A DNA stretch of 64,000 bases, taken from Deltaproteobacteria bacterium. GTDB taxonomy: Bacteria > Desulfobacterota > Binatia > UBA9968 > JAJDTQ01. The DNA lies in NCBI GenBank assembly GCA_028818755.1, contig JAPPNF010000011.1, forward strand, positions 1-64,000. Direction: 5' to 3'. Position 1 is the stretch's first letter; each line of letters opens with the position of its first letter. Under the pieces are notes generated by a model, which was given only the letters and a program-made list of their open reading frames with translations, searched no databases and was not told where the DNA came from. The position numbers and the translations under genes are program-made. Shown here piece by piece: positions 55-41,077 of the stretch.

Positions 55-2127
55 ATGAGCATTCGCCCGAGTCTCGTGTTGGGCCATCGGGGCGGCGGGA
101 CATGGGTAGTCCGATTGGAGATGCCTTCCTTCCGGGGAGTGGCCGTGTTGAATACGGAAGTCCACTCCTTCCTGAGACGCACGCGGTGCCGCATTAACGG
201 CGGTGCGGACATCAAGCCTGCAGGTTGGTTGCTTGCCGGGAACAGAATGAGTCGTCTTGCATCGTGGCCGGACCCGCACACGCCTCTCGTTCAGTTGCTT
301 CAGTCTCATGAAACCATCGACCATTTCCTGCAGTCGGAATGTCGCTTGAGTCCAGGTCCAGTCTGGCTGTTCAAGATCGCGCGGGATGGAAACGCCCGCG
401 AAGTTATCAGCCGCGTGGTCCGCCCGGGGAGCGAATATCTGGTTGTGACGACGGGGGCGTTGCCCGCAACTCATCCTTTCATACGCGCCTGTAGGGTTGA
501 TTGCGCTGGTGTGGAAGCGGTTAGGCTCGCGATTCCGCTCAGCGTTTCGGCAGACGAGACAGCGTGGCTGGGTCGATTGGGCTTGCAAGTAGCGCGGACG
601 ATCCGTGTGTGGCCGGCCGGACTTCCGGGGCGCGGCTGGGATGGCGAAGGTAATGGCGAATGGTTGACGACAGAATCGCCGTGCTTTGGGATCATGCACG
701 ATCATCCTGTTGGCACCTTCGTCCTGCGGCTCAACGATGGCGCGGAGGCTGAAATCGAGGCCGGCGACCGAGAAGAGCCGGTATTCGTGCGGCTAGCGCC
801 TCTTCCCGCTGGTGTGCACAACCTGACCGTGTCCGCTGCGACACCGGTGTCGGAGGTGGACGCCACGGGCTTCATGGAACTCCACGTCCGGGAACCAGAT
901 CCATGGCACCCGGGTGCCTCGTCCCTTGCATGTCTGATCCCGACCTTGGATCCATACGATCCCGACCTGGACCTGTTCTGGCGGAATGCAGTCGACTTGT
1001 CAGTGGTCGGTCCGGCAGGTCGGACGGTGAACTGTACCGTTTCGCTAGTGGACAAGCGTGGGAACGAAATCTTGACAGAGCGAGTCGGTAGTACCATGGA
1101 ACTGCCTGTCGATCCAGCAACGTGGAGGCAACAGTTCAAGCGATTTCTTGGGAACGAACGACATGCTTGGAGTTATCTTGAGGCCGCCAGTGGTTTCTTG
1201 GAGATTGAGGAGGAGGAACTGGGCCGTTATGTGTTCATGTTCGAGCACAAAGTCCACCCCTTGCGCTGGGTGTTGCGTCGCGACCGCGGTGACATCGTAC
1301 TGAAGTTGATTGATGAGTCTGATGAAGAGGCACCTCTTCAGGTACTCTTTTTCAGTATGCAGCATCCCTTAGTAGAAATACGGCGGGAGTCGGACGAAGC
1401 TTTGCGGCGGATATCTGTTCCCGCCCCAGGTGGTCTCTTGGTGGCGCAACAGGGAATGCACTGTGTGGCAGTGGTTGTCAGTACGGGAAGTAAGGAGGCG
1501 AGGAGGGTCCGAGGGCTCAAGAGCTTCCAGGAACTCGATATTACGCCGACGTTTCTTCCCGAAGCTGGGTTGGCCGACCTGGAGAGTCTGCAACATTGTT
1601 TCCGGGTCTTCGGGTGGTGGACCAATGCCCGCCTCTATGGCCCGCTGGCCACCGTCAGGCAGAAGAAGGTTGTTCAAGGTCTGCTTGGAGAGATTTATGC
1701 CAGGGTCTGCGGCAAAGCATGGAAACTGGCAGAGGACTCGTTCATGAAGGCCCCAAGGTCCGCATCCAGTGTGAGAAAGCTGCGAAATGTGGTGGATTTG
1801 GGCGGTGACTTTTCCCTGGCCCTCTGGCGAGGAAGCTCAAAGATCGAGGATGATGAGCAAAATACGGCAGCGATGACACGATGGTATGTCGATGTAGCCC
1901 AGAGAAACAACGTGAGCGCGAGCCCGCGCCTCTGCGAGTATGCTCTCAGACTGGCGAGTCAGCCGCACCGACTTCTGGAGGTCTACGACCGTGATGAAGT
2001 TCGGAATCTTCTCGAGCAAATCAAGAACAGGCCCACGATCCTACGCGGAGCTCGGTTGCTTGCGCTTTTGAGCGCTAGCAAGGAGGGTGCACGGCCACCG
2101 CACATGCTCCCGGACTGGAAATGGTAA
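55..2127 (+). CDS. Uncharacterised protein, first gene of DUF1998-helicase operon (possible Druantia accessory protein); possibly 5'-truncated
   Basis: 690-aa ORF overlapping the next gene (ATGGTAA). Reading frame is open to the left window edge. No recognised family. Confidence 0.7.
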   Translation: MSIRPSLVLGHRGGGTWVVRLEMPSFRGVAVLNTEVHSFLRRTRCRINGGADIKPAGWLLAGNRMSRLASWPDPHTPLVQLLQSHETIDHFLQSECRLSPGPVWLFKIARDGNAREVISRVVRPGSEYLVVTTGALPATHPFIRACRVDCAGVEAVRLAIPLSVSADETAWLGRLGLQVARTIRVWPAGLPGRGWDGEGNGEWLTTESPCFGIMHDHPVGTFVLRLNDGAEAEIEAGDREEPVFVRLAPLPAGVHNLTVSAATPVSEVDATGFMELHVREPDPWHPGASSLACLIPTLDPYDPDLDLFWRNAVDLSVVGPAGRTVNCTVSLVDKRGNEILTERVGSTMELPVDPATWRQQFKRFLGNERHAWSYLEAASGFLEIEEEELGRYVFMFEHKVHPLRWVLRRDRGDIVLKLIDESDEEAPLQVLFFSMQHPLVEIRRESDEALRRISVPAPGGLLVAQQGMHCVAVVVSTGSKEARRVRGLKSFQELDITPTFLPEAGLADLESLQHCFRVFGWWTNARLYGPLATVRQKKVVQGLLGEIYARVCGKAWKLAEDSFMKAPRSASSVRKLRNVVDLGGDFSLALWRGSSKIEDDEQNTAAMTRWYVDVAQRNNVSASPRLCEYALRLASQPHRLLEVYDRDEVRNLLEQIKNRPTILRGARLLALLSASKEGARPPHMLPDWKW

Positions 2128-3206
2128 TCGACAGGATAGAAGCGGCTGATGTTCTCGCCGACTGCCGGCAGACCCTCGGCTTGTCAGAACCGTCCGAAAC
2201 GGGCCAAGAGCCTCTTGACGAGATATTACTCGCGGCCTTGGTCAGACGCAGCGCAGGAATCCATTGCCCGTGTTCCCGGGCTACTCTGCGATCGTCTCTC
2301 CTGGAAAGCTTGATGCTGCTTTCGGAGGACGAGAAGACACTAGAGGAACGCATCGACGTGGTGATCGAAGGGCTGATCGTCGGCGGGGATCTTCTCGAAC
2401 TCAACGATGTCGCCACCGACGATCCGGATGTCAAGGGAACCTGGGTATTTGCGGCGCCTCCCGGTTTTGTCAGCCGGCGAAGCGGAAGCATCTTCCTGCT
2501 GGGTGTGGTTCCCGACCACGACACGTTCCTGCCGCAGTCACTAATTTCTCGCATCCATCATGAGGGTCTCACGCGCACGATCGTGCCGGAGCGGGACGAA
2601 GATCTCGTCGGCGATTTGCGAGCCCACGGCATGCGAGAGTTATCCGAAAGGGTCTGGCTGAAGGCCCCGACGGCGGAAGAGCCCCATGCCCTGCTCGACC
2701 GGTATACGCGTGAACTAAGGTTGCAGCCGCCGAGTGGCACCATCGTCGATCTCAGAGTTCTGGACCCTGTGAGACCCGTCACCTACTACAAAGGACGATG
2801 GGCAACGGCAGAAAAGCGAACCGGCATCTTCGTCGCACGACGGCCGCAGGAATACGGCGCGGAGTTGTGGTGTCTTGCCGAACTGAAGGCCGGCGCGGTC
2901 GTTCGGATACTTGACCTCCCCCTTTGGAAGACTCGCTGGCGGGGTTGCGACGTCGCGTGGCACTTGCAGATGGCGATAGACTCCTGCCTCGGGACCCCCC
3001 AACGTTATCGGCGGCAGGGTGTGGGCAGCCGAGTGCGTCTGGACTTCTTTTCGCCGCTACCACAATGGGCGGAACGACGGTTGATGATCCTGGGACGTCG
3101 TGCCGATCCGGACCGAAGCCTGATGTCCTATCAACTGCCACGCGCCGAAATCGACAGGGAAGAGAGCTTTCTCAAGAAAGAGCTGTGGCTGGCACCCGAG
3201 GACTAG
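2121..3206 (+). CDS. Uncharacterised protein, second gene of DUF1998-helicase operon
   Basis: 361-aa ORF, 7-nt overlap with the upstream gene, 23 nt upstream of the helicase ATG. N-terminal helical region could be winged-helix-like. Confidence 0.75.
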   Translation: MVIDRIEAADVLADCRQTLGLSEPSETGQEPLDEILLAALVRRSAGIHCPCSRATLRSSLLESLMLLSEDEKTLEERIDVVIEGLIVGGDLLELNDVATDDPDVKGTWVFAAPPGFVSRRSGSIFLLGVVPDHDTFLPQSLISRIHHEGLTRTIVPERDEDLVGDLRAHGMRELSERVWLKAPTAEEPHALLDRYTRELRLQPPSGTIVDLRVLDPVRPVTYYKGRWATAEKRTGIFVARRPQEYGAELWCLAELKAGAVVRILDLPLWKTRWRGCDVAWHLQMAIDSCLGTPQRYRRQGVGSRVRLDFFSPLPQWAERRLMILGRRADPDRSLMSYQLPRAEIDREESFLKKELWLAPED

Positions 3207-3229
3207 CTGGCCCAAGGGTAGCAACGACA

Positions 3230-6200
3230 ATGCTGACAATTCAGGAAACGATCAGGCAACTTCACGATGCCCTCTCCGACTACATCGAGGCGACATATCA
3301 CATCAGTGCGCTTTCCCAGATTTCACAGAGAAAGAGTCTGCTCAACGGACTCGGGAACATTCACCAGATTCCCTACATCGAGTCCACCCCTCGTTACACC
3401 GAAGGGGCAGAGTTCGCCGCGATGAAGGGGCTGTCGCGGGCAGCGCTCGACGCGTACCGGGCCGTGGTCGAACCCGAAGGAGACCTTCCGCGGCTTATTC
3501 ATGATCCGCCGTATACGCATCAGGCCGACGCCGTTCGCAGTTGCCTCGTGGATGGAAGGAATCTTGTCATCATGACAGGGACAGGGTCGGGCAAGACAGA
3601 GGCCTTCTTGCTGCCGATACTCGGCAAGTGTGCTGACGAGGCGCGAAGGCGGCCCGATGCATTCAGTGCGCAGCCAGCCATGCGCGCTCTCATCCTCTAT
3701 CCAATCAACGCGCTCGTCAACGACCAGCTTGGACGACTGCGGTCAATGTTCGGCGATCCGCGTATCGTGAAGCTCTTCAAAGGGTGGGGCGCCCGGCCTC
3801 CACGTTTCGCCAGATACACGAGCAGAACACCGTATCCTGGCGTCCGTACAGTCGCGAAGGATCGGACAAGGCTCACGGCGTTCGGCAGATTCTATGCGGA
3901 CATTCAGCGGCGAGCACAAACGGATGACACCGCGCGAAAATTGCTCCGGAACCTCGAGGAACACGGAAAGTGGCCTGCCAAGCCGGACTTTCTTGAGTGG
4001 TTCGGCGAAGCGGGTAAGCACTGGCAGAATGCCAAAACCGGAGCGTTTCAGAGGGCCGTGACGTTGCCGGACGACTCCGAACTGCTGACACGTCACGAGG
4101 TCCAGGCGGCGCCGCCCGACCTGCTGGTGACCAACTACTCGATGCTCGAATATATGCTGATGCGGCCGATCGAACGTCCGGTGTTCGACAGCACGCGGGA
4201 GTGGCTCGAAGGCAGTCCTGACGAGAAGTTTCTGGTCGTCCTGGACGAAGCCCATCTGTACAGGGGCGCGGCCGGAGCAGAGGTCGGTCTTCTGCTGCGT
4301 CGGCTTCGCGCGCGGCTGGGTATCTCCCACGAGCGTTTTCAGGTCATCTGCGCCACCGCGAGTTTCCAGGATCATGAAAACGCACCCGAGTTCGGAGCCC
4401 AACTGTCCGGCAATCCTGTCGGGAGTTTCCGTCCCATCACAGGCTCGCTGAAGCTCAGGCCGAATGCCGCGGCCGGGACGGATGATGACGCGGCCGTTCT
4501 CGCGTCTGTAGACCTTCAGGGATACTACGAGGCAGCTACGGATCAAGAGAGGCGTGCCGCCGTCCAGCCTATTCTGGACTACCGGTGCGTGGAGGGCGAC
4601 CTTCCTACGGATGTCGCGCTGTATCGCGCGCTGGAAGAATTCGGACCGATGGGACTCCTGATCAATTCCAGTATGACGCAGGCCCTACCGCTTGCGGAAC
4701 TCGGGCCGCAACTTTTTCCTACGGCGCCGTTGGGCCAGGCTGCGGCGGCCGTAACCGCACTGACAACTTTAGGTAGCGTCGCACGAATCCAGGATGACAC
4801 ACCGGGTCTGCTCCCGTGCCGCATTCACAACTTCTTCCGAGGCCTTCCGGGGCTCTGGGTATGCATGGACCCCGATTGCAGCGAAACGGGGGAGCGGGAA
4901 GGCATCTGCGGGAAGATGTACGGCCAGCCACGCGAACGGTGCAACTGCGGCGCACGGGTACTGGAACTGTACACCTGCCGCAACTGCGGCACGGCGTATG
5001 CGAGAGCTTACACGGATGACATAGATGTTCCCTCTGTGCTCTGGGCCGAGCCCGGTCAGCGGCTACGTATAGCTTATGGCGAATCCGAGTCGCTTTTGCC
5101 CTTGGATCTGCTTCTCGAACAACCGACCTTCGACACCGCGGAACCAGCGGACTACGATCTCGAAACCGGACGCCTCAACCCTCCCGTAGTAGGTCCACGT
5201 ACCCGGACCGTGTATATCCGGAGCGAGCGTCTGTCGGACTCTACCAATGCGGACAGCGAGGCATTCATCGAAATCGAAACGCGCGGCCAGTTCGCGCCGT
5301 GTGCGGTCTGCGGGAAGCAAGCTGGATTCGGTCGATCATCTGTGCAGGATCATCAGACCAAGGGGGATCAGCCGTTTCAGGCGCTCGTCGCTCGCCAACT
5401 TCAGATTCAACCACCGGATCCTGAGAAGCAACCCAGCAGCTTCGCGCCGCTGCAAGGGCGCAAGGTGCTGACTTTCGCCGACTCAAGGCAGGTGGCCGCT
5501 CGGCTCGCCCCGAATTTGCAGATGTATTCGGTCCGCGATTCTCTCCGAGCGCTCATAGCGTGGGGTTACCGCCGGCTTCAAGGTGTGTCCACGCTCCTCC
5601 CGCTCCTGAACCTAAGCGACTTGTACTTCGCCGTCTTGCTGGCGTCGAAGATGCTCAACGTCCGACTCCGCCCGGAAACGAAGTCTGGTGAAAGCTTCAA
5701 CGCCGCGCGCCTCGTCGAAAGTGCACCGACGGACGACGACGTGAGTCTCCTCTCGCTGTTGGTGCAATTGCGCAACGAAAGGCCTCCGGAAGCCCTGCTT
5801 GAGGACATCTTCACCACGGTCCAGGATCGGTTCCTGGGATTCGAAGCACTAGGGTTGGCTTCGCTCGGAGAGCAGAGCAGGCATACAGCCGAGATCAAGC
5901 AACTCCCGGGGATCTCAGGCGTTGCTGAGACCCCTGAAGGCAAGGTGGCAATCGCACGCGCTTGGCTTCGGTGCTGGCAGACATCCGGCTTCTGGTTGGG
6001 TTCCATGCCTCCTGATTGGTGGCAGACCAAGATCAGGGGCTCTAAAGGGACATTCCGGGCGATGGATCGCCTTTTTCCGGATGTTGCCGCCCGGCAGACA
6101 TTCCGGAAGTCGTGGTTGCCAACTCTTCTTAACCTCTTCACGGAAGACATGGGGGGCGGGATCCGACGTCTCAGAGGAAGCGAGCTTTCACTCGTTTTTG

Positions 6201-8716
6201 AGGGTATCTGGGTGCACTGTGCACGGTGTAGATCCGTTCACCGCCCAGTCCCCGAACTGTCTAGGTGTCTCGATTGTGGCAGCCCGGACGGGACGGAGAT
6301 AGAGCCGGATTCAGACCCCGTGTTTCTTGCCCGCAAGGGTTTCTACCGCAATCCGGTCACTGAGGTGCTGAAGGAGCCGCCACGCCAACCCATGGCCCTG
6401 ATTGCGGCGGAACATACGGCCCAGCTGAACGCGCCGCAGAACCAGGACACCTTCTCCAAGGCCGAGGAGAACGAGTTGCTCTTTCAGGACATCGATCTGG
6501 GCGAGAACGGGGAGGCCTCGACAGCCGTGGACGTGCTTTCGAGTACGACGACCATGGAGGTCGGCATTGACATTGGAGCGCTTTCCGGCGTTGCGCTCCG
6601 GAACATGCCCCCTGCCCGGGCGAACTATCAGCAGCGCGCGGGGCGGGCGGGCCGTCGCGGCAAAGCCGTCGCGACCGTAGTGGCCTTCGGTAGTGCAGAC
6701 AGCCACGATGAGCACTACTTTTCGGAGCCGGACGGCATGATTCGCGGGTCTGTGGTCGATCCGAGGTTGACTCTCGACAATCCAGAGATTGTCCGGCGGC
6801 ACATCCGCGCTTTTCTCTTGCAGAGCTATCATCAGGATAGGATCCCGGAAGTGGATCCGGAACAACGCCACGATTTGTTTTCGGTCCTCGGAACGGTCTC
6901 CGAGTTCCGCAGCGGCACGTCGGTGTTGAACCGCAACGATTTCGCGGCATGGCTCGGTGAACGCGAAGAGTCACTGCAGAAACTTGTCCTCTCTTGGGTA
7001 CCGCGGGAGTTGGCGGAGGCTGACCGGGACACGCTCATTCGGAAAATGAAGGACGATTGCCTTGAGGCTATCGACGACGCGATCCGGCCGGACCCTGGAG
7101 AAGTCGGCGAGGACGATGAAGAAGAAAGTGAGATTCCATCCGAAGCGGAAGAGGAACGGCCTCAGCGGGCATCAAGCCCGGCTAAGCTATTGGACCGGCT
7201 TCTCTACTGCGGGAAGCTGCCGCGCTACGCCTTTCCTACGGACGTGGCGACGTTTCACGTCTTCGACACTAACAGGTCGACACGTTTCAGGCCGGTCATG
7301 CGCTTTGCCCCGACTCAGAGCCTGCCGGTGGCGCTTACGCAATACGCGCCCGGGAAACAGGTGTGGATCTCGGGCAAGTGTTACACTTCAGGTGCGATCT
7401 ATTCGGTGATGTCAGAAGACCGGTTCCGCGCTTGGGAAACAAGGCGCATCTACATGGAATGTCGCGAGTGTGGTTTCGTGGGGACCTTTCCGGTCGGTGA
7501 GGTCGCCCGTGGCGACACGCGAGACTGCGACGCGTGCGGAGGCGAGGAAACATTCGGCCCCGGGCGCTACTGGATGCGGCCGCCGGGTTTCGCCCATCCG
7601 TTGGATGTGGACGAAGTCACATCACCGGACGATATGCCGGAAACGAGCTACGCGACGCGCGCAAAACTCACCATGGGAACGCCCGGCGAGGGGGAGAACT
7701 GGATCACCGTCAACGATCGCATCCGTGTTCTGAGGGATCGCCAACATCTTCTGGTGTCGAACACAGGGCCGAGGAAAGAGGGCTATACTTACTGCACGAA
7801 GTGCGGACGCATCGAATCCAGTGCTAGCCCTGTTTCGGTACTAGCGAGTGAACATCGTAAGCCGTACCCTGACGATGATGCCAAGATGTGCGATGGCCAC
7901 GCGACCCAGCACCTTGTTCTTGGGACGGACTTCGTCACGGATATTGCGTTGTTCTCGCTACGCGTGGCTTCGCCGGTGCGGTTGAGCCCGGGCCATTCCT
8001 CGACAGCCGTCGCGCTGAGGACGGTCAGCGAAGCGCTGGGCAAGGCGGCGTGTCAGTTGTTGGAGATTGAGCCGGATGAACTCTTGGCGGAGTTCCGGCC
8101 TGCGCTGACGCAAGCCGGGAAGCGCGGTCTTGAGGCAGAGATTTTCCTCTACGATACCTTGCCTGGCGGGGCCGGTTTTTCCAGCCAAGTGGCCGGTCGC
8201 GGTCGGGATTTGATCCAGCGGGCGCTGTGGCTCATGGAGCACTGTCCAGAGGACTGTGATGCCTCGTGCTACCGGTGTCTGCGAAGCTTCAAGAACAGGT
8301 TCGAACATAGCCTACTGGATCGCCACGTGGGTGCGGCCTTGCTCCGGTATCTTCTTACGGGGGAAGACCCGCAGTTCAGTCCTGACCGACTCCAGAGAGC
8401 GACAACGCTCCTGTACAATGACCTTGTGCGTCAGGGAGACGAAGGGGTCGCCTTCGAGCGCGACGTGACAGTGGAAACCGAGTTGGGAACCCTGACGGCG
8501 CCGATCCTCGCACGGACCGTTGCCGGGCTCGTGTACATCGTTGTCCTTTCGGGTCCGCTGACTAACGATCAACCCGAAGATCCTGCCATCGCTGACTACC
8601 GTGCGGGTGGCGGCGCCCTTCCAGTGATCGTGGAAAATGAACTGATGATTCGCGGCAATCTTCCCGCCGCCACGCGTAACGTACAGAAAGCGATCGGTGC
8701 CGGCACGGTCCAGTAG
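3230..8716 (+). CDS. Large DEAD/DEAH-box helicase with DUF1998-like C-terminus (DruE/DrmA/MrfA-type superfamily)
   Basis: Walker A MTGTGSGKTEAF; DEAH in VVLDEAHLYRGAAGAE; motif VI QQRAGRAGRRG; Cys clusters (CNCGARVLELYTCRNCGTAYARAY, CRECGFVG...CDACGG, CTKCGR); C-terminal LYDTLPGGAGFSSQV...CDASCYRCLRSFKNRFEHSLLDR typical of DUF1998. Start chosen at MLTIQETIRQL, not the longer 2924 ORF. Confidence 0.9.
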   Translation: MLTIQETIRQLHDALSDYIEATYHISALSQISQRKSLLNGLGNIHQIPYIESTPRYTEGAEFAAMKGLSRAALDAYRAVVEPEGDLPRLIHDPPYTHQADAVRSCLVDGRNLVIMTGTGSGKTEAFLLPILGKCADEARRRPDAFSAQPAMRALILYPINALVNDQLGRLRSMFGDPRIVKLFKGWGARPPRFARYTSRTPYPGVRTVAKDRTRLTAFGRFYADIQRRAQTDDTARKLLRNLEEHGKWPAKPDFLEWFGEAGKHWQNAKTGAFQRAVTLPDDSELLTRHEVQAAPPDLLVTNYSMLEYMLMRPIERPVFDSTREWLEGSPDEKFLVVLDEAHLYRGAAGAEVGLLLRRLRARLGISHERFQVICATASFQDHENAPEFGAQLSGNPVGSFRPITGSLKLRPNAAAGTDDDAAVLASVDLQGYYEAATDQERRAAVQPILDYRCVEGDLPTDVALYRALEEFGPMGLLINSSMTQALPLAELGPQLFPTAPLGQAAAAVTALTTLGSVARIQDDTPGLLPCRIHNFFRGLPGLWVCMDPDCSETGEREGICGKMYGQPRERCNCGARVLELYTCRNCGTAYARAYTDDIDVPSVLWAEPGQRLRIAYGESESLLPLDLLLEQPTFDTAEPADYDLETGRLNPPVVGPRTRTVYIRSERLSDSTNADSEAFIEIETRGQFAPCAVCGKQAGFGRSSVQDHQTKGDQPFQALVARQLQIQPPDPEKQPSSFAPLQGRKVLTFADSRQVAARLAPNLQMYSVRDSLRALIAWGYRRLQGVSTLLPLLNLSDLYFAVLLASKMLNVRLRPETKSGESFNAARLVESAPTDDDVSLLSLLVQLRNERPPEALLEDIFTTVQDRFLGFEALGLASLGEQSRHTAEIKQLPGISGVAETPEGKVAIARAWLRCWQTSGFWLGSMPPDWWQTKIRGSKGTFRAMDRLFPDVAARQTFRKSWLPTLLNLFTEDMGGGIRRLRGSELSLVFEGIWVHCARCRSVHRPVPELSRCLDCGSPDGTEIEPDSDPVFLARKGFYRNPVTEVLKEPPRQPMALIAAEHTAQLNAPQNQDTFSKAEENELLFQDIDLGENGEASTAVDVLSSTTTMEVGIDIGALSGVALRNMPPARANYQQRAGRAGRRGKAVATVVAFGSADSHDEHYFSEPDGMIRGSVVDPRLTLDNPEIVRRHIRAFLLQSYHQDRIPEVDPEQRHDLFSVLGTVSEFRSGTSVLNRNDFAAWLGEREESLQKLVLSWVPRELAEADRDTLIRKMKDDCLEAIDDAIRPDPGEVGEDDEEESEIPSEAEEERPQRASSPAKLLDRLLYCGKLPRYAFPTDVATFHVFDTNRSTRFRPVMRFAPTQSLPVALTQYAPGKQVWISGKCYTSGAIYSVMSEDRFRAWETRRIYMECRECGFVGTFPVGEVARGDTRDCDACGGEETFGPGRYWMRPPGFAHPLDVDEVTSPDDMPETSYATRAKLTMGTPGEGENWITVNDRIRVLRDRQHLLVSNTGPRKEGYTYCTKCGRIESSASPVSVLASEHRKPYPDDDAKMCDGHATQHLVLGTDFVTDIALFSLRVASPVRLSPGHSSTAVALRTVSEALGKAACQLLEIEPDELLAEFRPALTQAGKRGLEAEIFLYDTLPGGAGFSSQVAGRGRDLIQRALWLMEHCPEDCDASCYRCLRSFKNRFEHSLLDRHVGAALLRYLLTGEDPQFSPDRLQRATTLLYNDLVRQGDEGVAFERDVTVETELGTLTAPILARTVAGLVYIVVLSGPLTNDQPEDPAIADYRAGGGALPVIVENELMIRGNLPAATRNVQKAIGAGTVQ

Positions 8717-8969
8717 TTAGGTCGAGGAGCCCGACGGACATGAAAGCCTGTCGAAGTGCTGGTGAGGTGCCATGTGAGCGGCCGGAGGGCTATCGACGCC
8801 GGGCCACCATAGACGGGGAGCCGCGCCATCAACAAGTCCGCCATCCGCATGAAGTCGGACCTAGTCGCTGAGCCGGCGGGCCGTAAGGAAACACCACTAA
8901 CTAGTGTGTGAGGAAAAGGGAGCGGGTCACTGGGTTTGCGGGTGCTGGCCGAGGGCACGGAGTTGCCTC
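8717..8969 (+). other. Non-coding interval with structured-RNA look (possible group II intron 5' fragment)
   Basis: Contains GTGAGGTGCCATGTGAGCGGCCGGAGGGCTATCGACGCCGGG and GTCGCTGAGCCGGCGGGCCGTAAGGAAACACCACTAACTAGTGTGTGAGG. Resembles bacterial group II intron domain I sequence from memory only. No RT ORF. Confidence 0.3.
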
Positions 8970-9839
8970 ATGCGGAATGCAGAGAAAGATAGCGTTGGAG
9001 CTGTTTTCCAGAAGGAAGAAACCGTCCGGTATGTCTCAATCTGGACCAATAAGGAAGGCGGGGAATTCTTAGTCTCATTGCGAGTGGTACCGGCAGGTCG
9101 TGAGGGTAAGACTGTATACGGACGGACTTTACGTCATGGAGAAGAAGTAGACCCGGATGAAGGAGTACTCGTAAGAGCGGGCGAGCGGTTTGTCTTCAGA
9201 GAGGGAGATCTGACAATTGACGCCCGCGCCGTCGATGAACTCTACAACCCTGAGGAGCGGGGCGGGTACAGGCCGATCTCGAACACCGTTTGGACTTGGC
9301 ACCACTTCACTTCGGAACGACGGAGTTTCTTCTTGTTCATCTTCGCGTTAGCGAAGCGACTCGATGCAACTCACACGAGTTGGGTTGCGGCGCTTGAAAT
9401 CCGAGACCGAGCGCGCGAGGAAAAGGGCATTTCACGACGACGATTACACTTGAGCGAACTGGCGGCGGCTGAGGCGACCGTCGTTCCGCTCGGGCGATGC
9501 TATTCGATGATCCGGACTCTCGTCCGACAACACTGTCCGGAATTGCACATGCCTGAAACGGTAGCGCGAACCTTTGGTGCGGTATGTGAGATGAGAAACG
9601 CGTTTGAACACATAGATGAACGAGCAGAAGGAAAGCTAAAGGTAGGGAGAAAGACGGTAATTGATCCCGACGCGTTCACGATCTTCGATCAACCGGACTT
9701 CATCGGGTCCGGTATATTGCGGTATAAGGCGTTTCAGTTGAATTTCGAATCAGACGTGCTTGCAGCCCTTATCGAGTGTCGGGGGTTGGTGTTAGCGGCG
9801 ATCAGAGCGCGGGTCCGGGCAAGAGCACGACTTGACTAG
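8970..9839 (+). CDS. HEPN-motif protein (candidate RNase/toxin)
   Basis: ~289 aa from ATG 8970. C-terminal CEMRNAFEHIDER carries RNxxxH, the canonical HEPN motif, in a helical region. Confidence 0.6.
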   Translation: MRNAEKDSVGAVFQKEETVRYVSIWTNKEGGEFLVSLRVVPAGREGKTVYGRTLRHGEEVDPDEGVLVRAGERFVFREGDLTIDARAVDELYNPEERGGYRPISNTVWTWHHFTSERRSFFLFIFALAKRLDATHTSWVAALEIRDRAREEKGISRRRLHLSELAAAEATVVPLGRCYSMIRTLVRQHCPELHMPETVARTFGAVCEMRNAFEHIDERAEGKLKVGRKTVIDPDAFTIFDQPDFIGSGILRYKAFQLNFESDVLAALIECRGLVLAAIRARVRARARLD

Positions 9840-10714: not shown

Positions 10715-11803
<1,089 letters not shown>

Positions 11804-11817
11804 AGACACGAAACCTC

Positions 11818-12948
11818 ATGGTTGACCTGAGAGGCAAATACGTTCACGGCGCGAAACGGGTGGTTGTGAAGATCGGGAGCCGCGTCCTTTCTTCCGAGCG
11901 CGGTCTGCACTCGCGGCGTATCGGGAGGCTGGTGCGCGAGCTGGCGGCGCTCCACGATCAAGGGAAGAAGCTCGTGGTGGTCAGCTCCGGCGCTATCGCG
12001 TCGGGCATCAGCCGGCTGGGCCTTGCCAAGCGCCCCACCGACCTGCCGCAAGAGCAGGCGCTGGCGGCGGTCGGGCAGATCCGGCTGATGGCGCTGTACG
12101 AGAACTCCTTCGCCGGCTATGGGAAGCACGTGGGGCAGGTGCTGCTGACCCACGAAGACCTGGCCAACCGCAAGCGCTACCTCAACGCCAAGCACACGCT
12201 CAAGACCCTCCTGGACTGGGACATCATCCCCATCGTCAACGAAAACGATACCGTTGCGGTGGAGGAGGTGAAGTTCGGCGACAACGACCAGTTGTCCGCG
12301 CTGGTGGCCACACTCATGGAGATGGACCTGCTGGTGATTCTGAGCGACGTCGACGGGGTGTATGACCGCGATCCCAGGTCCAGCGACGAGGCTCGGCTGA
12401 TGCCCGTGGTGACCGATCTCGCCACGGCCAAGAAGGTGGCCCAGGACGCGCAACCGTCGGATCTGGGGCGGGGCGGCATGTACTCGAAGCTCTGTGCCGC
12501 GGAGCAGGCGAGCCAGGCCGGCATTCCCACCGTCATCGCCAGCGGCCGGGAGCGGGAGGTCCTGAACGGCTTGTTCGAAAGCGGCCGCGAGTCGGGTACC
12601 CTGGTGTTGCCCGAGGAGAACCGCCTCACCAGCCGCAAGCACTGGATCCTCTACAATCTCAAGCCCTCCGGTGCGGTGATGGTGGACAACGGCGCCTGCG
12701 CTGCGGTGACAGCCAGGGGCAAGAGCCTGCTGCCGTCGGGAGTGCGGGAGATCCGCGGCTCCTTCGGGGCCGGCGAGTGCGTGAGTTGCGTCGACGACAG
12801 CGGCCGCGAGTTCGCCCGCGGCCTGGTGAACTACAGCTCGCAGGAGCTGCACAAGATAAAGGGATCGCACTCGGGCAAGATCGAGGCCATCCTGGGGTAC
12901 AAGGCCTACGACGAGATCATCCACCGGGACGATCTCGTGCTGGTATAG
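11818..12948 (+). CDS. proB: Glutamate 5-kinase (with PUA domain)
   Basis: VVKIGSRVLSSE, SSGAIASGI, NENDTVAVEEVKFGDNDQLSALVA, GRGGMYSKL; C-terminal PUA-like region. Confidence 0.97.
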   Translation: MVDLRGKYVHGAKRVVVKIGSRVLSSERGLHSRRIGRLVRELAALHDQGKKLVVVSSGAIASGISRLGLAKRPTDLPQEQALAAVGQIRLMALYENSFAGYGKHVGQVLLTHEDLANRKRYLNAKHTLKTLLDWDIIPIVNENDTVAVEEVKFGDNDQLSALVATLMEMDLLVILSDVDGVYDRDPRSSDEARLMPVVTDLATAKKVAQDAQPSDLGRGGMYSKLCAAEQASQAGIPTVIASGREREVLNGLFESGRESGTLVLPEENRLTSRKHWILYNLKPSGAVMVDNGACAAVTARGKSLLPSGVREIRGSFGAGECVSCVDDSGREFARGLVNYSSQELHKIKGSHSGKIEAILGYKAYDEIIHRDDLVLV

Positions 12949-13050
12949 TTCAGCGTATGTGGTCCAAGAGAATTTCCGCAGATCGACTGCTCAAGGCCTG
13001 CGAAAAGGCCAACTTGGGTAGTGTTCTCGGGAGATAAGAAGAGGAAGCCG

Positions 13051-14025
13051 ATGCAGGAACGTGCTCCCAGGAACCGGACTCTGTCGTGCACCGACGAGGA
13101 AGTGATGGCGTTGTCGCGTGACATTATGCACGTGAAATCGACCATTGCCCTGTCGGACATCGAAGGGCGGCTCTTGTCAGGAGACATCTTTGAGTTGGCG
13201 AGATATCTCCCGTCTGCGTTTGTCGATCTCCTCATTCTGGATCCACCGTACAACCTTTCCAAGAACTACGACGGCAACCTGTTCAAACGGAAAGAACAAG
13301 ACGAATATCAGTCTTGGTTTGACGGTGTTGTCGACTTGTTGGATCCGATGCTGAAGCCGGATTCGACGATTTACGTGTGCGCCGATTGGAAGACGTCTAC
13401 ACTCGTGTTGCCGATCCTGGAATCCAGATTCCACGTCCGTAACAGGATTACCTGGGAACGGGAGAAGGGGCGCGGCGCCAAAATGAATTGGAAGAACAAC
13501 ACAGAGGATATCTGGTTTTGTACAAAATCGGATCGGTATTATTTTGATGTTGACGCGGTCAAGCTGAAACGTCGGGTCCTCGCGCCATACAGGGTCGATG
13601 GACGGCCGAAGGATTGGGTTCAAGAAGAAGATGGCAACTACCGCCTTACCTATCCCTCCAATATCTGGACTGATGTGACGGTCCCGTTCTGGTCCATGTC
13701 GGAGAACACAGATCACCCTACTCAGAAACCGGAGAAGTTGATGGCGAAACTGATCCTTGCCAGTTCGAAAAAGGGAGGTTTCGTGTTCGACCCCTTCCTC
13801 GGCAGCGGAACGAGTGTGGTCGTAGCGGCGAAGCTGCAAAGACGCTGGTGTGGAGTGGACATCAATACTCGTTACTTGTGCTTGGCGCACAAGCGCGTGA
13901 CCGCTGCGAAAGAGGACTCGACTATCCAGGGCTATGAGAAGGGCGTGTTCTGGGAGAGAAACTCGACGGCCGGCCAGCGCACCCAGAACAAGTTGAACGA
14001 ACGTCAGGAAACCCTGTTCTCATGA
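13051..14025 (+). CDS. DNA methyltransferase (N6-adenine/N4-cytosine, beta-type order), Type II R-M
   Basis: LLILDPPYNLSKNYDG (motif IV) precedes FDPFLGSGTSVVVAAKLQRRWCGVDIN (motif I). ORF is open from 13021; ATG 13051 is likelier. Confidence 0.9.
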   Translation: MQERAPRNRTLSCTDEEVMALSRDIMHVKSTIALSDIEGRLLSGDIFELARYLPSAFVDLLILDPPYNLSKNYDGNLFKRKEQDEYQSWFDGVVDLLDPMLKPDSTIYVCADWKTSTLVLPILESRFHVRNRITWEREKGRGAKMNWKNNTEDIWFCTKSDRYYFDVDAVKLKRRVLAPYRVDGRPKDWVQEEDGNYRLTYPSNIWTDVTVPFWSMSENTDHPTQKPEKLMAKLILASSKKGGFVFDPFLGSGTSVVVAAKLQRRWCGVDINTRYLCLAHKRVTAAKEDSTIQGYEKGVFWERNSTAGQRTQNKLNERQETLFS

Positions 14026-14690
14026 GGTCCCGTTTTTACTACGAGGGGCACCATCAAGCGGTGGCATCGGCAGTCAGAGACTACGTCAATTCATCTCAGG
14101 ACTTTCTCTCGCCGCACACCGCCGGAAGCCCGAGAGCGGCGGGCGACGCGATCGAAGCGCTTGTTGCAGAGAAGTTTGGCGGTTTTCTGGGCGATTGGTG
14201 CACCGAGTATTCGAGAGAGTTCGCTCGTCGCGCCATGGCGGACATGGCCTTCACCGACAAGGAGGGCATCTACTCTGTAGTGGATGTCAAGACACACAGA
14301 GAAGACGCCCGATTCAGCATGCCCAACCTCACGTCTGTGGATCGGCTGGCCCGATTCTACGAGTCAGATGCCAATGTCTTCTCACTTCTGATGATCAAGT
14401 ATGCGATTGAAGACACCAGTGTCACGGTGTCGGAGGTGGTGTTCTGTCCCATTGAATTCTTGGATTGGTCGTGTCTGACTGTCGGCGCGCTTGGTTGGGG
14501 CCAGATCCAGATAGCGAACTCCAACAACATTCGCGTGATCGAGCGATATTCGAGGAAGGAATGGATGTTGCAGTTATGTGATGCATTGCTGACGTTCTAT
14601 CCGAAGGAAATTGGCAAGATACAAGACAGGATCGAGCGTTTTAGTGATGTGCGGAAGTACTGGGAAGCGAAGGAAGACTTATGGCGCTGA
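14022..14690 (+). CDS. Putative Type II restriction endonuclease (PD-(D/E)XK-like)
   Basis: ATGA overlap with the methyltransferase stop. DMAFTDKEGIYSVVDVKTH fits a D-x(n)-DxK nuclease core. Confidence 0.75.
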   Translation: MRSRFYYEGHHQAVASAVRDYVNSSQDFLSPHTAGSPRAAGDAIEALVAEKFGGFLGDWCTEYSREFARRAMADMAFTDKEGIYSVVDVKTHREDARFSMPNLTSVDRLARFYESDANVFSLLMIKYAIEDTSVTVSEVVFCPIEFLDWSCLTVGALGWGQIQIANSNNIRVIERYSRKEWMLQLCDALLTFYPKEIGKIQDRIERFSDVRKYWEAKEDLWR

Positions 14691-14700
14691 CGACGTCAGG

Positions 14701-15969
14701 ATGGGAGTCGCCATGGCAGTAGCCGAGGAAGCAATCGCCATCGGGCAAAGGGCCAGGGACGCGGCCGGGGCGCTGGCCAATCTTTCCACGGACCTCAAGA
14801 ACGAGGCCCTTGTGGCCATGGCGGACGGCATCGAGGCGCGGCAGGACTTCCTGCTCGCCGAGAACGCGAAGGACGTCGCCGGAGCGAAAAAAAAGGGCAT
14901 TTCCAAGGCGGTGATCGACCGCCTCACACTGAATCCCCAACGGGTGGCGGCCATGGCCGCGGCCATTCGGGACATCGTCGGCCTGCCCGACCCCGTGCGG
15001 CAGGTGACCCGGCAGTGGCAGCGCCCTAACGGCCTCGAGGTGGGTAAGATGCGCATCCCGCTGGGGGTCATCACGATCATCTACGAGGCCCGGCCGAACG
15101 TCACCGCGGACGCCGCGTCGCTGTGCATCAAGTCGGGCAACGCCGTCATCCTCAGGGGCAGCAGCGATGCAAAGCATTCCAATCAGGCCATCGGCGACGT
15201 ATTGCGGGAGGCGTGCGCCGAGGCCGGCGCGCCTGAAGACGCCGTGCAGGTGGTAGCGTCCACCGACCGGGCGATGATCAACGAGCTGCTCAAGCTCGAG
15301 GAGTACGTGGACCTGGTCATCCCGCGCGGCGGCGAGGAACTGATCCGTTTCGTCGCGGCCAACTCCCTGGTGCCGGTGGTCAAGCACTACAAGGGCGTGT
15401 GCCACGTCTACGTCGACAGCGACGCCGACCTGGACATGGCGGAACGGATTTCCCTCAACGCCAAGGTCCAGCGACCGTCGGTGTGCAATGCCATGGAGAC
15501 GCTGCTGGTGCACGAGGCGGTGGCGCCGCGGTTCCTGCCCGATGTGATCGGCAAGCTCAGGGAGAGCGGCGTGGAGGTGCGCGGTTGCGACAAGACCCGG
15601 GCGCTGGTCGGCGGAATCCCGGCGGCCAGCGAGGCGGACTGGCACGAGGAATACCTGGACCTGGTGCTGGCGGTGCGGGTGGTGGCGGACATGGACGAAG
15701 CCATCGAGCACATCCGGCAATACGGTTCGGATCACACCGAGACCATCGTGACCGCCGACCGCGGCAAGGCCGAGGAGTTCATCGCGCGGGTCAACTCGTC
15801 GGCGGTGCTGGTCAACGCCTCCACGCGCTTCAACGACGGCGGCGAGCTCGGCCTCGGCGCCGAGATCGGCATCAGCACCAGCAAGATCCACGCCTTCGGC
15901 CCCATGGGGCTGGAAGAGCTCACGAGCACCAAGTTCTTCGTCTACGGCGATGGACAGGTCCGCACCTAG
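14701..15969 (+). CDS. proA: Glutamate-5-semialdehyde dehydrogenase
   Basis: PLGVITIIYEARPNVTADAASLCIKSGNAVILRG, LVPVVKHYKGVCHVYVD, GAEIGISTSKIHAFGPMGLEELTSTKF. Confidence 0.97.
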   Translation: MGVAMAVAEEAIAIGQRARDAAGALANLSTDLKNEALVAMADGIEARQDFLLAENAKDVAGAKKKGISKAVIDRLTLNPQRVAAMAAAIRDIVGLPDPVRQVTRQWQRPNGLEVGKMRIPLGVITIIYEARPNVTADAASLCIKSGNAVILRGSSDAKHSNQAIGDVLREACAEAGAPEDAVQVVASTDRAMINELLKLEEYVDLVIPRGGEELIRFVAANSLVPVVKHYKGVCHVYVDSDADLDMAERISLNAKVQRPSVCNAMETLLVHEAVAPRFLPDVIGKLRESGVEVRGCDKTRALVGGIPAASEADWHEEYLDLVLAVRVVADMDEAIEHIRQYGSDHTETIVTADRGKAEEFIARVNSSAVLVNASTRFNDGGELGLGAEIGISTSKIHAFGPMGLEELTSTKFFVYGDGQVRT

Positions 15970-38870: not shown

Positions 38871-39235
38871 GAGGCCCTGCCGCACCAAACTGGAATCGTG
38901 GGCCGCTCCTGACCGCGAGGACGGTCCCGTTTGACCTGGAAATAGCACCCTCCGAACGACTCTCAAGACGAGGCGCTATCCAAATTTTCGCGCCGTCGGA
39001 CCATCATTCGGTGGTCCACCTGTTCTTCCCGTTTCCACGACAGGCCGTGAAGTAACGGCATCTTGTCCCGTCTCCTCCCACCTAAGCCCGACACGCTGTG
39101 GAGGTCTTGTTCGATCTTGGATTTGACATAGATAAATATTTTATCCAGAAACATATTCGTTTCATCAAATTACATAGGGGAGAGAATTTCTGGCACAGTG
39201 GGCAGGTGCTGCGGGCCGCCTGTGTGAATCATTCC

Positions 39236-41077
39236 ATGGCGATCATTATCCCAAATCTTGGACTGGGCAACGCGAAAGCTACCCCCGGCGAAAAGCGCTT
39301 CGCGCATCGCTTGGAGTCTCTGCTCGACGACGAGTGGTTGTGTTTCTACGACATACCCGTGGGAAAGCGGCGGCGTTATCCGGATTTCATCCTGGTGCAT
39401 CCCCGGTGCGGCTTGCTGTTCCTGGAAGTCAAGGACTGGAAGCTGAGTTCGATCAACCGCATCGACCACGACAGAGTTGAACTGGAGACCGCCAGTGGCT
39501 TGAAAGCCACGGTCAATCCGGTCAAACAAGCGCGCGAAGGAGCCTTGCAGACCATAGACATGCTCCAATGCGATCCGCATTTGAAGGAGAAACAAGGCCA
39601 GTACAAGGGGAATCTGATCTGCCCTTACGGCCATGGCGTGGTATTGACGAACATCACCCGCAAGCAGATCCAGTCTGTGGCGCCGGATGACGTATCCGAA
39701 CGGGTGCTGCCAAGTCGCCTGCTGATCTGCAAGGACGAAATGCTGGAGGACACCGACCCGGAGACATTTCAGGAGCGTCTTTGGGACATGTTCGAGTATC
39801 GATTCAAGAAGTCGCTGACCCTGCCCGATCTGAACCGCATCCGCTGGCACCTGTACCCGGAAATCCGCATCGACAACCTGGAGCTTTTCCCGCAGGAGAA
39901 GGTGCCCCGACAGGGTTCCGTCCCGGATGTAGTCAAGGTGATGGACATCCATCAGGAACAACTGGCCCGCGGCCTTGGCGACGGGCATCGCGTCATTCAC
40001 GGCGTGGCGGGTTCCGGCAAAACCCTGATTCTGGAATTCCGCGCCGAGGTTCTGGCGGAGTTGCTCAAAAAGCCGATTCTCGTCCTATGTTTCAACATCA
40101 CCCTGGCGGCGAAGCTCAGGAGTCACATGCGCAGCAAGGGCATCGCCGACAAGGTGCACGTCTACCACTTTCACGACTGGTGCGGAGAGCAGCTAAGAAC
40201 CCATCAAGTGGACGTTGCTAAAGGCGATAAGCCGGTTTGGGAACGACAGGTGGACAGCGTGATCGCCGGCGTCGAGAAGGGACAGATCTCACCCGGGCGA
40301 TACGGCGCGTTATTGATCGACGAGGGCCACGATTTCGAAGAAAGCTGGCTACGACTCGTCGTCCGGATGGTCGACCGGAATACAAACTCGCTGTTGCTGT
40401 TGTACGACGACGCCCAGTCCATCTACCGTCGAAGCGACTTGGGGTTCTCCTTGTCGAGCGTGGGCGTGCAGGCGCGCGGCCGCACGAAGATTCTCAAGCT
40501 CAACTACCGCAACACGAGCCAAATCCTGAACTTCGCCTACGAGTTCGCCAAGGAGGTGCTTCAGGAGAAGAGTTCCGGCGACGACCACGTGCCGTTGATC
40601 AAGCCACAAGCCGCGGGGGTGGACGGCCCCTTGCCGATATTCAAGCAATTGGGTTCGTTCGAAGGAGAAGCCAGTTTCGCCGCCGACTGCGTCAAAAAGT
40701 GGCACGAGGACGGTGTGCCGTGGCGGGAGGTGGCGATCATTTACGACGCGCACTGGATGGGCAAAGCCGTGGCGGAGAGGTTCGGAGAACGAGGTATTCC
40801 CTTCCAGTTACTTCACACGTCCGCAACGAGGAAGCGCTACAATCCACAGGCCGATCAAGTGGTGCTTCTGACACAACAGAGCAGCAAGGGGTTGGAGTTT
40901 TCGCGCGTGGTTCTTGTTGGCTTGGGAAAACTACGGACCGAACGAGACGACATCGCCGAGGAAACACGCGAGCTATATGTCGCGATGACACGTGCCCGCG
41001 AATGCTTGTTAATGACGGCAAGTGAGACCAACGTCTACACGCGGAAGATTCAATCCATTACGGCTGCGAAAACCTGA
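39236..41077 (+). CDS. NERD-nuclease domain fused to UvrD/Rep-like helicase
   Basis: N-terminal YPDFILVHPRCGLLFLEVKDWK (PD-(D/E)XK, NERD-like); GVAGSGKTLIL; LLIDEGHDFEESWL; LYVAMTRARECLLM. ATG 39236 preferred over 39098. Confidence 0.85.
   Translation: MAIIIPNLGLGNAKATPGEKRFAHRLESLLDDEWLCFYDIPVGKRRRYPDFILVHPRCGLLFLEVKDWKLSSINRIDHDRVELETASGLKATVNPVKQAREGALQTIDMLQCDPHLKEKQGQYKGNLICPYGHGVVLTNITRKQIQSVAPDDVSERVLPSRLLICKDEMLEDTDPETFQERLWDMFEYRFKKSLTLPDLNRIRWHLYPEIRIDNLELFPQEKVPRQGSVPDVVKVMDIHQEQLARGLGDGHRVIHGVAGSGKTLILEFRAEVLAELLKKPILVLCFNITLAAKLRSHMRSKGIADKVHVYHFHDWCGEQLRTHQVDVAKGDKPVWERQVDSVIAGVEKGQISPGRYGALLIDEGHDFEESWLRLVVRMVDRNTNSLLLLYDDAQSIYRRSDLGFSLSSVGVQARGRTKILKLNYRNTSQILNFAYEFAKEVLQEKSSGDDHVPLIKPQAAGVDGPLPIFKQLGSFEGEASFAADCVKKWHEDGVPWREVAIIYDAHWMGKAVAERFGERGIPFQLLHTSATRKRYNPQADQVVLLTQQSSKGLEFSRVVLVGLGKLRTERDDIAEETRELYVAMTRARECLLMTASETNVYTRKIQSITAAKT

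Follow-up and report, generated by a model that had tools for sequence, protein, structure and literature searches.

A Type II restriction-modification cassette between proB and proA in a sponge-type Binatia bacterium

A two-gene insert is located between proB and proA of a sponge-type member of Binatia, and its features support a Type II restriction-modification (R-M) system, namely a methyltransferase gene, a separate gene for a nuclease with a restriction endonuclease fold and an intact predicted active site, and stable linkage of the two. The earlier note on this DNA had read the insert as a Type II R-M module, and the family matches of both genes and their linkage across genomes agree with that reading. 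The two genes lie on the same strand between functionally linked neighbours, and relatives carry the corresponding empty site. With a probability of about 0.75, we regard the insert as a self-contained cassette that was acquired horizontally from a pool of sponge symbionts, was inserted in an ancestor of the genus, was kept in some species and is transcribed from the pro operon.

The locus and the two inserted genes

The host genome (G000) consists of 4.9 Mb in 187 contigs, and the stretch analysed, called the window here, covers the initial 64 kb of its contig C164. The contamination of this metagenome-assembled genome (MAG) is 5.6%; the insert itself is anchored by the flanking proB and proA. 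The gene order in the window is rplU-rpmA-obg-proB-insert-proA-nadD-rsfS, where proB and proA were assigned by NCBIfam, and rplU, rpmA, obg, nadD and rsfS by reading the translations. The left flank, proB (11818-12948, + strand; TIGR01027, E = 1.6e-135), encodes glutamate 5-kinase with AA_kinase and PUA domains. The right flank, proA (14713-15969, + strand; NF001221, E = 8.8e-184), encodes glutamate-5-semialdehyde dehydrogenase. Both genes are present as single copies in G000 (one match for proB). Two + strand ORFs lie between these profile-identified flanks, and the pair is placed exactly between proB and proA, as had been claimed. No convincing target-site duplications or att-like repeats were found at the junctions of the insert.

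Other genes of the window were also noted. A Druantia type-I-like defence system composed of DruD (PADLOC, E = 2e-132) and DruE (1994 bits) is located at 2121-8716 (+ strand), at the left contig end and about 1.3 kb upstream of rplU. The preceding ORF (55-2127, 690 aa) shows no family match. Between DruE and rplU, a gene of low GC content (about 54%) at 8904-9839 (+ strand, 311 aa) has no Pfam or PADLOC match. The product of 39098-41077 (+ strand, 659 aa) has a NERD nuclease-related domain fused to a UvrD-type helicase.

The upstream gene of the insert encodes a beta-type N6/N4 DNA methyltransferase of the adenine type (324 aa; 13051-14025, + strand). It matches PF01555 N6_N4_Mtase (E = 3e-43), which confirms the beta-order methyltransferase named previously, and PADLOC MTase_II (E = 9e-59). 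The motifs are arranged in the beta order, with DPPY on the N-terminal side and FxGxG on the C-terminal side. The closest solved relative is also of the beta type (PDB 8urk, E = 2e-38); we take 8urk and 9c3s to be M.BceJIV, an orphan regulatory methyltransferase for GTWWAC, whereas the methyltransferase in the window has a nuclease partner. Starts at 12949 and at 13021 (GTG, ORF caller) were considered and set aside. The start is probably better placed at ATG 13051, since the sequence M-x-x-R-A-P-R-N-R-T is conserved at this position in the aligned relatives. The segment between the proB stop and this ATG (12949-13050, + strand) is a module leader of 102 nt with 52% GC.

The downstream gene (14022-14690, + strand; 222 aa) overlaps the methyltransferase gene by ATGA, and we place its product in the blunt-cutting PD-(D/E)XK group of HincII, SwaI and EcoRV according to profile searches and a predicted structure. 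The single sequence matches no Pfam family, including PF09226, and phmmer with it against the PDB detected no relative. A profile built from 71 sequences (70 collected relatives and the window protein) was required, and its best solved-structure matches are all HincII (best E = 0.0074), aligned through the D-V-K active-site motif. Furthermore, 37 of the 71 family members match PF09226 Endonuc-HincII with E values no higher than 1, the best being 1.2e-4. AlphaFold gave a confident model (pLDDT 91.3), and its top solved folds found by Foldseek are SwaI (E = 6e-9, TM 0.73-0.77), HincII (E = 2.5e-8) and EcoRV. The likely catalytic residues are Asp74, Asp88 and Lys90, the latter two within D88-V-K90; among the 71 relatives, Asp74 and Asp88 are invariant and Lys90 is at least 90% conserved. 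The ATGA overlap, the profile and the fold thus uphold the previous description of a coupled PD-(D/E)XK-like nuclease.

R.HincII recognises GTYRAC and R.SwaI recognises ATTTAAAT; HincII, SwaI and EcoRV all cut blunt at the middle of their palindromes, and blunt cutting is therefore expected for the nuclease in the window. The protein shares with R.HincII (PDB 1kc6; PF09226) the PD-(D/E)XK fold, the D...D-V-K active site, the profile matches and a P-N-[IL]-x-S-x-x-[KR]-L-A segment after the active site, but the identity in the structural alignment is about 16-18%, and the window protein is shorter (222 versus 257 aa). R.SwaI (PDB 5tgx) is the best structural match, with TM 0.77 over nearly the whole chain; the identity is 10-11%, however, and a sequence-family match was found in one relative only (E = 0.057). 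The lack of a Pfam match for the window protein alone might suggest that the nuclease-like gene has another role, for example in repair or regulation. Such a role is extremely improbable in view of the tight linkage with a Type II methyltransferase in nearly all loci, the HincII profile matches, the conserved active site and the SwaI/HincII fold. The earlier reading would have been refuted by an ORF without restriction endonuclease similarity, and such similarity is present.

The pair behaves as a unit. Among 80 fetched loci, M is located directly upstream of R in nearly all, usually overlapping it or at most 25 nt apart, and at least 70 genomes from many phyla harbour the two genes. The copies closest to that in the window typically overlap by ATGA, which indicates that the coupling is a property of the module and not of the locus. 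In the maximum-likelihood tree of R, the window copy is sister to the copy of a second species of the genus, G002 (100/98), and both fall in a clade (18 rows, 99/95) in which at least six phyla are intermingled, namely Binatota, Pseudomonadota, Cyanobacteriota, Bacteroidota, Rhodothermota and Latescibacterota. Since these closest copies, mostly from sponge symbionts, interleave phyla, the pair moves horizontally. Most members of the clade are sponge-associated MAGs, as judged from record titles and sponge papers and not source by source. G002 is Candidatus Binatia bacterium isolate jk18x7bins.45 (contig JAJEAI010000051.1), a MAG from an Ircinia sponge; the jk18x7 MAGs were obtained from Ircinia cf. 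reteplana, a Caribbean sponge (PMC9531527). R-M systems are reported to be enriched in sponge symbionts (PMC8163846; PMC9531527).

Insertion history and age

The proB gene was located in eight of the nine genomes of the genus. The comparison of relatives proposed in the earlier note revealed the empty site in five of the seven congeners with a readable site (G001, G004, G005, G007 and G008), in which 22-29 nt separate the proB stop from the proA ATG. G002 carries the same module at the same position. In G003, a different insert without the module occupies the junction. This spacer in G003 (C61; L105 2106-2288) is about 180 nt long and rich in palindromes, and resembles a dispersed repeat. The module is thus present in two of the eight species with a readable site (G000 and G002), which contradicts an ancestral pair shared across the whole clade. 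In the class, the nuclease was found in only 5 of 151 genomes.

According to the tree of proB and proA, G000 and G002 belong to two different clades of the genus, each supported at 100/100, and the presence of the module is therefore patchy. We favour a single, old insertion close to the root of the genus, after which most species lost or replaced the module. In this sequence of events, the cassette (M, then the overlapping HincII/SwaI-type R) would have been acquired from a pool common to sponge symbionts, and would have entered the short gap that separates the proB stop from the ribosome-binding site of proA in an ancestor of this Binatia genus. The remaining species would have lost it, or replaced it by recombination with empty alleles. 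A point against this reading is that a single insertion needs several such precise losses or replacements. Two independent insertions of related modules into the same spacer, as a preferred target, would account for carriers in different clades with the nearest relatives of each being empty, for the synonymous divergence of the module exceeding that of the flanks (pS 0.49-0.59 versus 0.34-0.42), and for another insert in the same spacer of G003. We nevertheless consider two insertions somewhat unlikely. The leaders of G000 and G002 (102 and 107 nt) are homologous to each other (score 55.5 against 11.2 ± 7.1 for shuffles) but show no homology to those of eleven other module copies tested, the ten bases that follow the nuclease stop resemble each other, and the two copies are mutually closest in the R tree. 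Moreover, none of the other fetched relatives carries the module at a proB-proA junction.

The low GC content of the insert had previously been taken as a sign of recent acquisition. The composition itself was confirmed, at 52-54% for the insert and 65-67% for proB and proA. In 25 of 26 loci, however, the module is lower in GC than its flanks; a GC content below that of the host characterises the module family and gives no sign of recency. The copies of G000 and G002 (53-54%) reach the highest module GC of all measured loci, as would be expected of a module that has long resided in a high-GC host. Between these two genomes, pS is 0.59 for M and 0.49 for R, and 0.34-0.42 for obg, proB, proA and rsfS, while dN is similar (0.09-0.11 in the module and 0.06-0.14 in the flanks). 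Codon bias is higher in the flanks (GC3 about 0.9 versus 0.67 in the module), and this may partly explain their lower pS. As the divergence of the two copies at this site equals or exceeds that of the flanks, recency is unsupported, and a recent transfer of the module between the species of G000 and G002 is excluded. Recent acquisition by the G000 species from an unrelated donor would fit the contrast in GC (53% against 66% in proB and proA) and the patchy presence, but the family-wide composition and the diverged copy at the same place in a sister species make it very unlikely, and the single early insertion described above is preferred.

Expression of proA and activity of the module

The nuclease stop is followed by a spacer (14691-14712, + strand; GTCAGGATGGGAGTCGCC) with the retained ribosome-binding region of proA, and the corresponding segment of the congener G008 reads GTCAGGACGGGAGTCATC. 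The conserved proA start in the relatives corresponds to ATG 14713 (ATGGCAGTAGCC), 22 nt after the nuclease stop. In G008 this start is preceded by GTCAGGACGGGAGTC, and the window keeps GTCAGGATGGGAGTC. Thus, proA in G000 has its own ribosome-binding site, with the ancestral Shine-Dalgarno sequence kept. The earlier note had given a proA ATG 10 nt from the nuclease stop; an ATG is indeed present at 14701, but it lies inside the old ribosome-binding region of proA and is not the conserved start. The dependence of proA translation on read-through of the R-M genes, also proposed there, finds no support in G000 because the native start and Shine-Dalgarno sequence are retained.

The junction is different in G002 (L002 4660-4690). 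The segment is shortened, the native Shine-Dalgarno sequence and ATG of proA are gone, and the old ATG reads ACG. The first in-frame ATG (ATGGCACTGA) overlaps the nuclease stop, with AAGGAAG upstream. Translational coupling is therefore plausible in G002 and not in G000. It is quite unlikely that proA of the G002 type would be translated only through coupling to the restriction endonuclease gene, which would make a biosynthetic step dependent on a mobile module. At the R/proA junction, RNA structure is no better than chance (z = -0.37).

No promoter- or terminator-like site was detected on the + strand of 11750-14800 by a consensus scan limited to sigma-70-type promoters, which could miss a promoter of the module. 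With none seen there, proA is probably transcribed through the module, and co-transcription of the R-M and pro genes is plausible. The module would most likely be transcribed from the obg-proB-proA operon, as it has no promoter or terminator of its own that could be recognised on the coding strand. M would be synthesised before R, which would be translated by coupling, and proA would use its own retained start. A stronger link may also be imagined, in which proline synthesis is coupled to R-M addiction, so that loss of the R-M genes, or a failure to translate them, would lower proA expression and the operon and the module would protect each other. The position of proA, the sole genomic copy, directly downstream with no terminator, the altered proA start in G002 and the maintenance effect suggested for PabI R-M systems (PMC4615327) are in line with such a coupling. 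It is unlikely on the whole, since the ancestral start and Shine-Dalgarno sequence are intact in G000, and most congeners lack the module, so that its absence is tolerated.

The enzymes would methylate a short palindrome and cleave it to blunt ends. The dN/dS values between the copies of G000 and G002 are about 0.08 for M and about 0.13 for R, which indicates that both proteins are under selection and have retained their function. Samples of about 400 kb each from two carriers and two non-carriers showed no carrier-specific depletion of any 6-base palindrome (64 palindromes and five degenerate GT..AC patterns; largest |z| 2.8 in 69 tests). The activity of the R-M system is therefore not visible in genome composition. 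GTYRAC, GTWWAC and GTNNAC likewise showed no carrier-specific depletion, which speaks neither for nor against recognition of GTYRAC, and the whole-genome counts of GTTAAC contain nothing carrier-specific. Independently of the module, CAGCTG is strongly depleted throughout the genus (G000-G008), with 66-233 sites per genome versus 1048-2185 for the reversed control word GTCGAC, and its observed/expected ratio in the samples is 0.01-0.30.

Precedent and significance

Insertion of R-M genes into amino-acid operons is already published. PabI R-M pairs are inserted on the same strand in the glutamate synthase and histidine operons, and it was suggested that they impose maintenance of the operon (PMC4615327). 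The pair described here is likewise co-oriented with the metabolic operon that contains it and was recognised as an insertion by comparing relatives, but its nuclease belongs to another superfamily (PabI being a DNA glycosylase) and the operon is a different one. What the present case adds is a well-resolved insertion history. The empty sites, together with the copy at the same position in a second clade, make it a clean example of a defence cassette inside a housekeeping operon. It also draws attention to a restriction family resembling HincII and SwaI, which Pfam scarcely covers and which circulates among sponge symbionts from many phyla. If coupling does occur in G002, this would illustrate how a mobile module for defence can make its own loss difficult.
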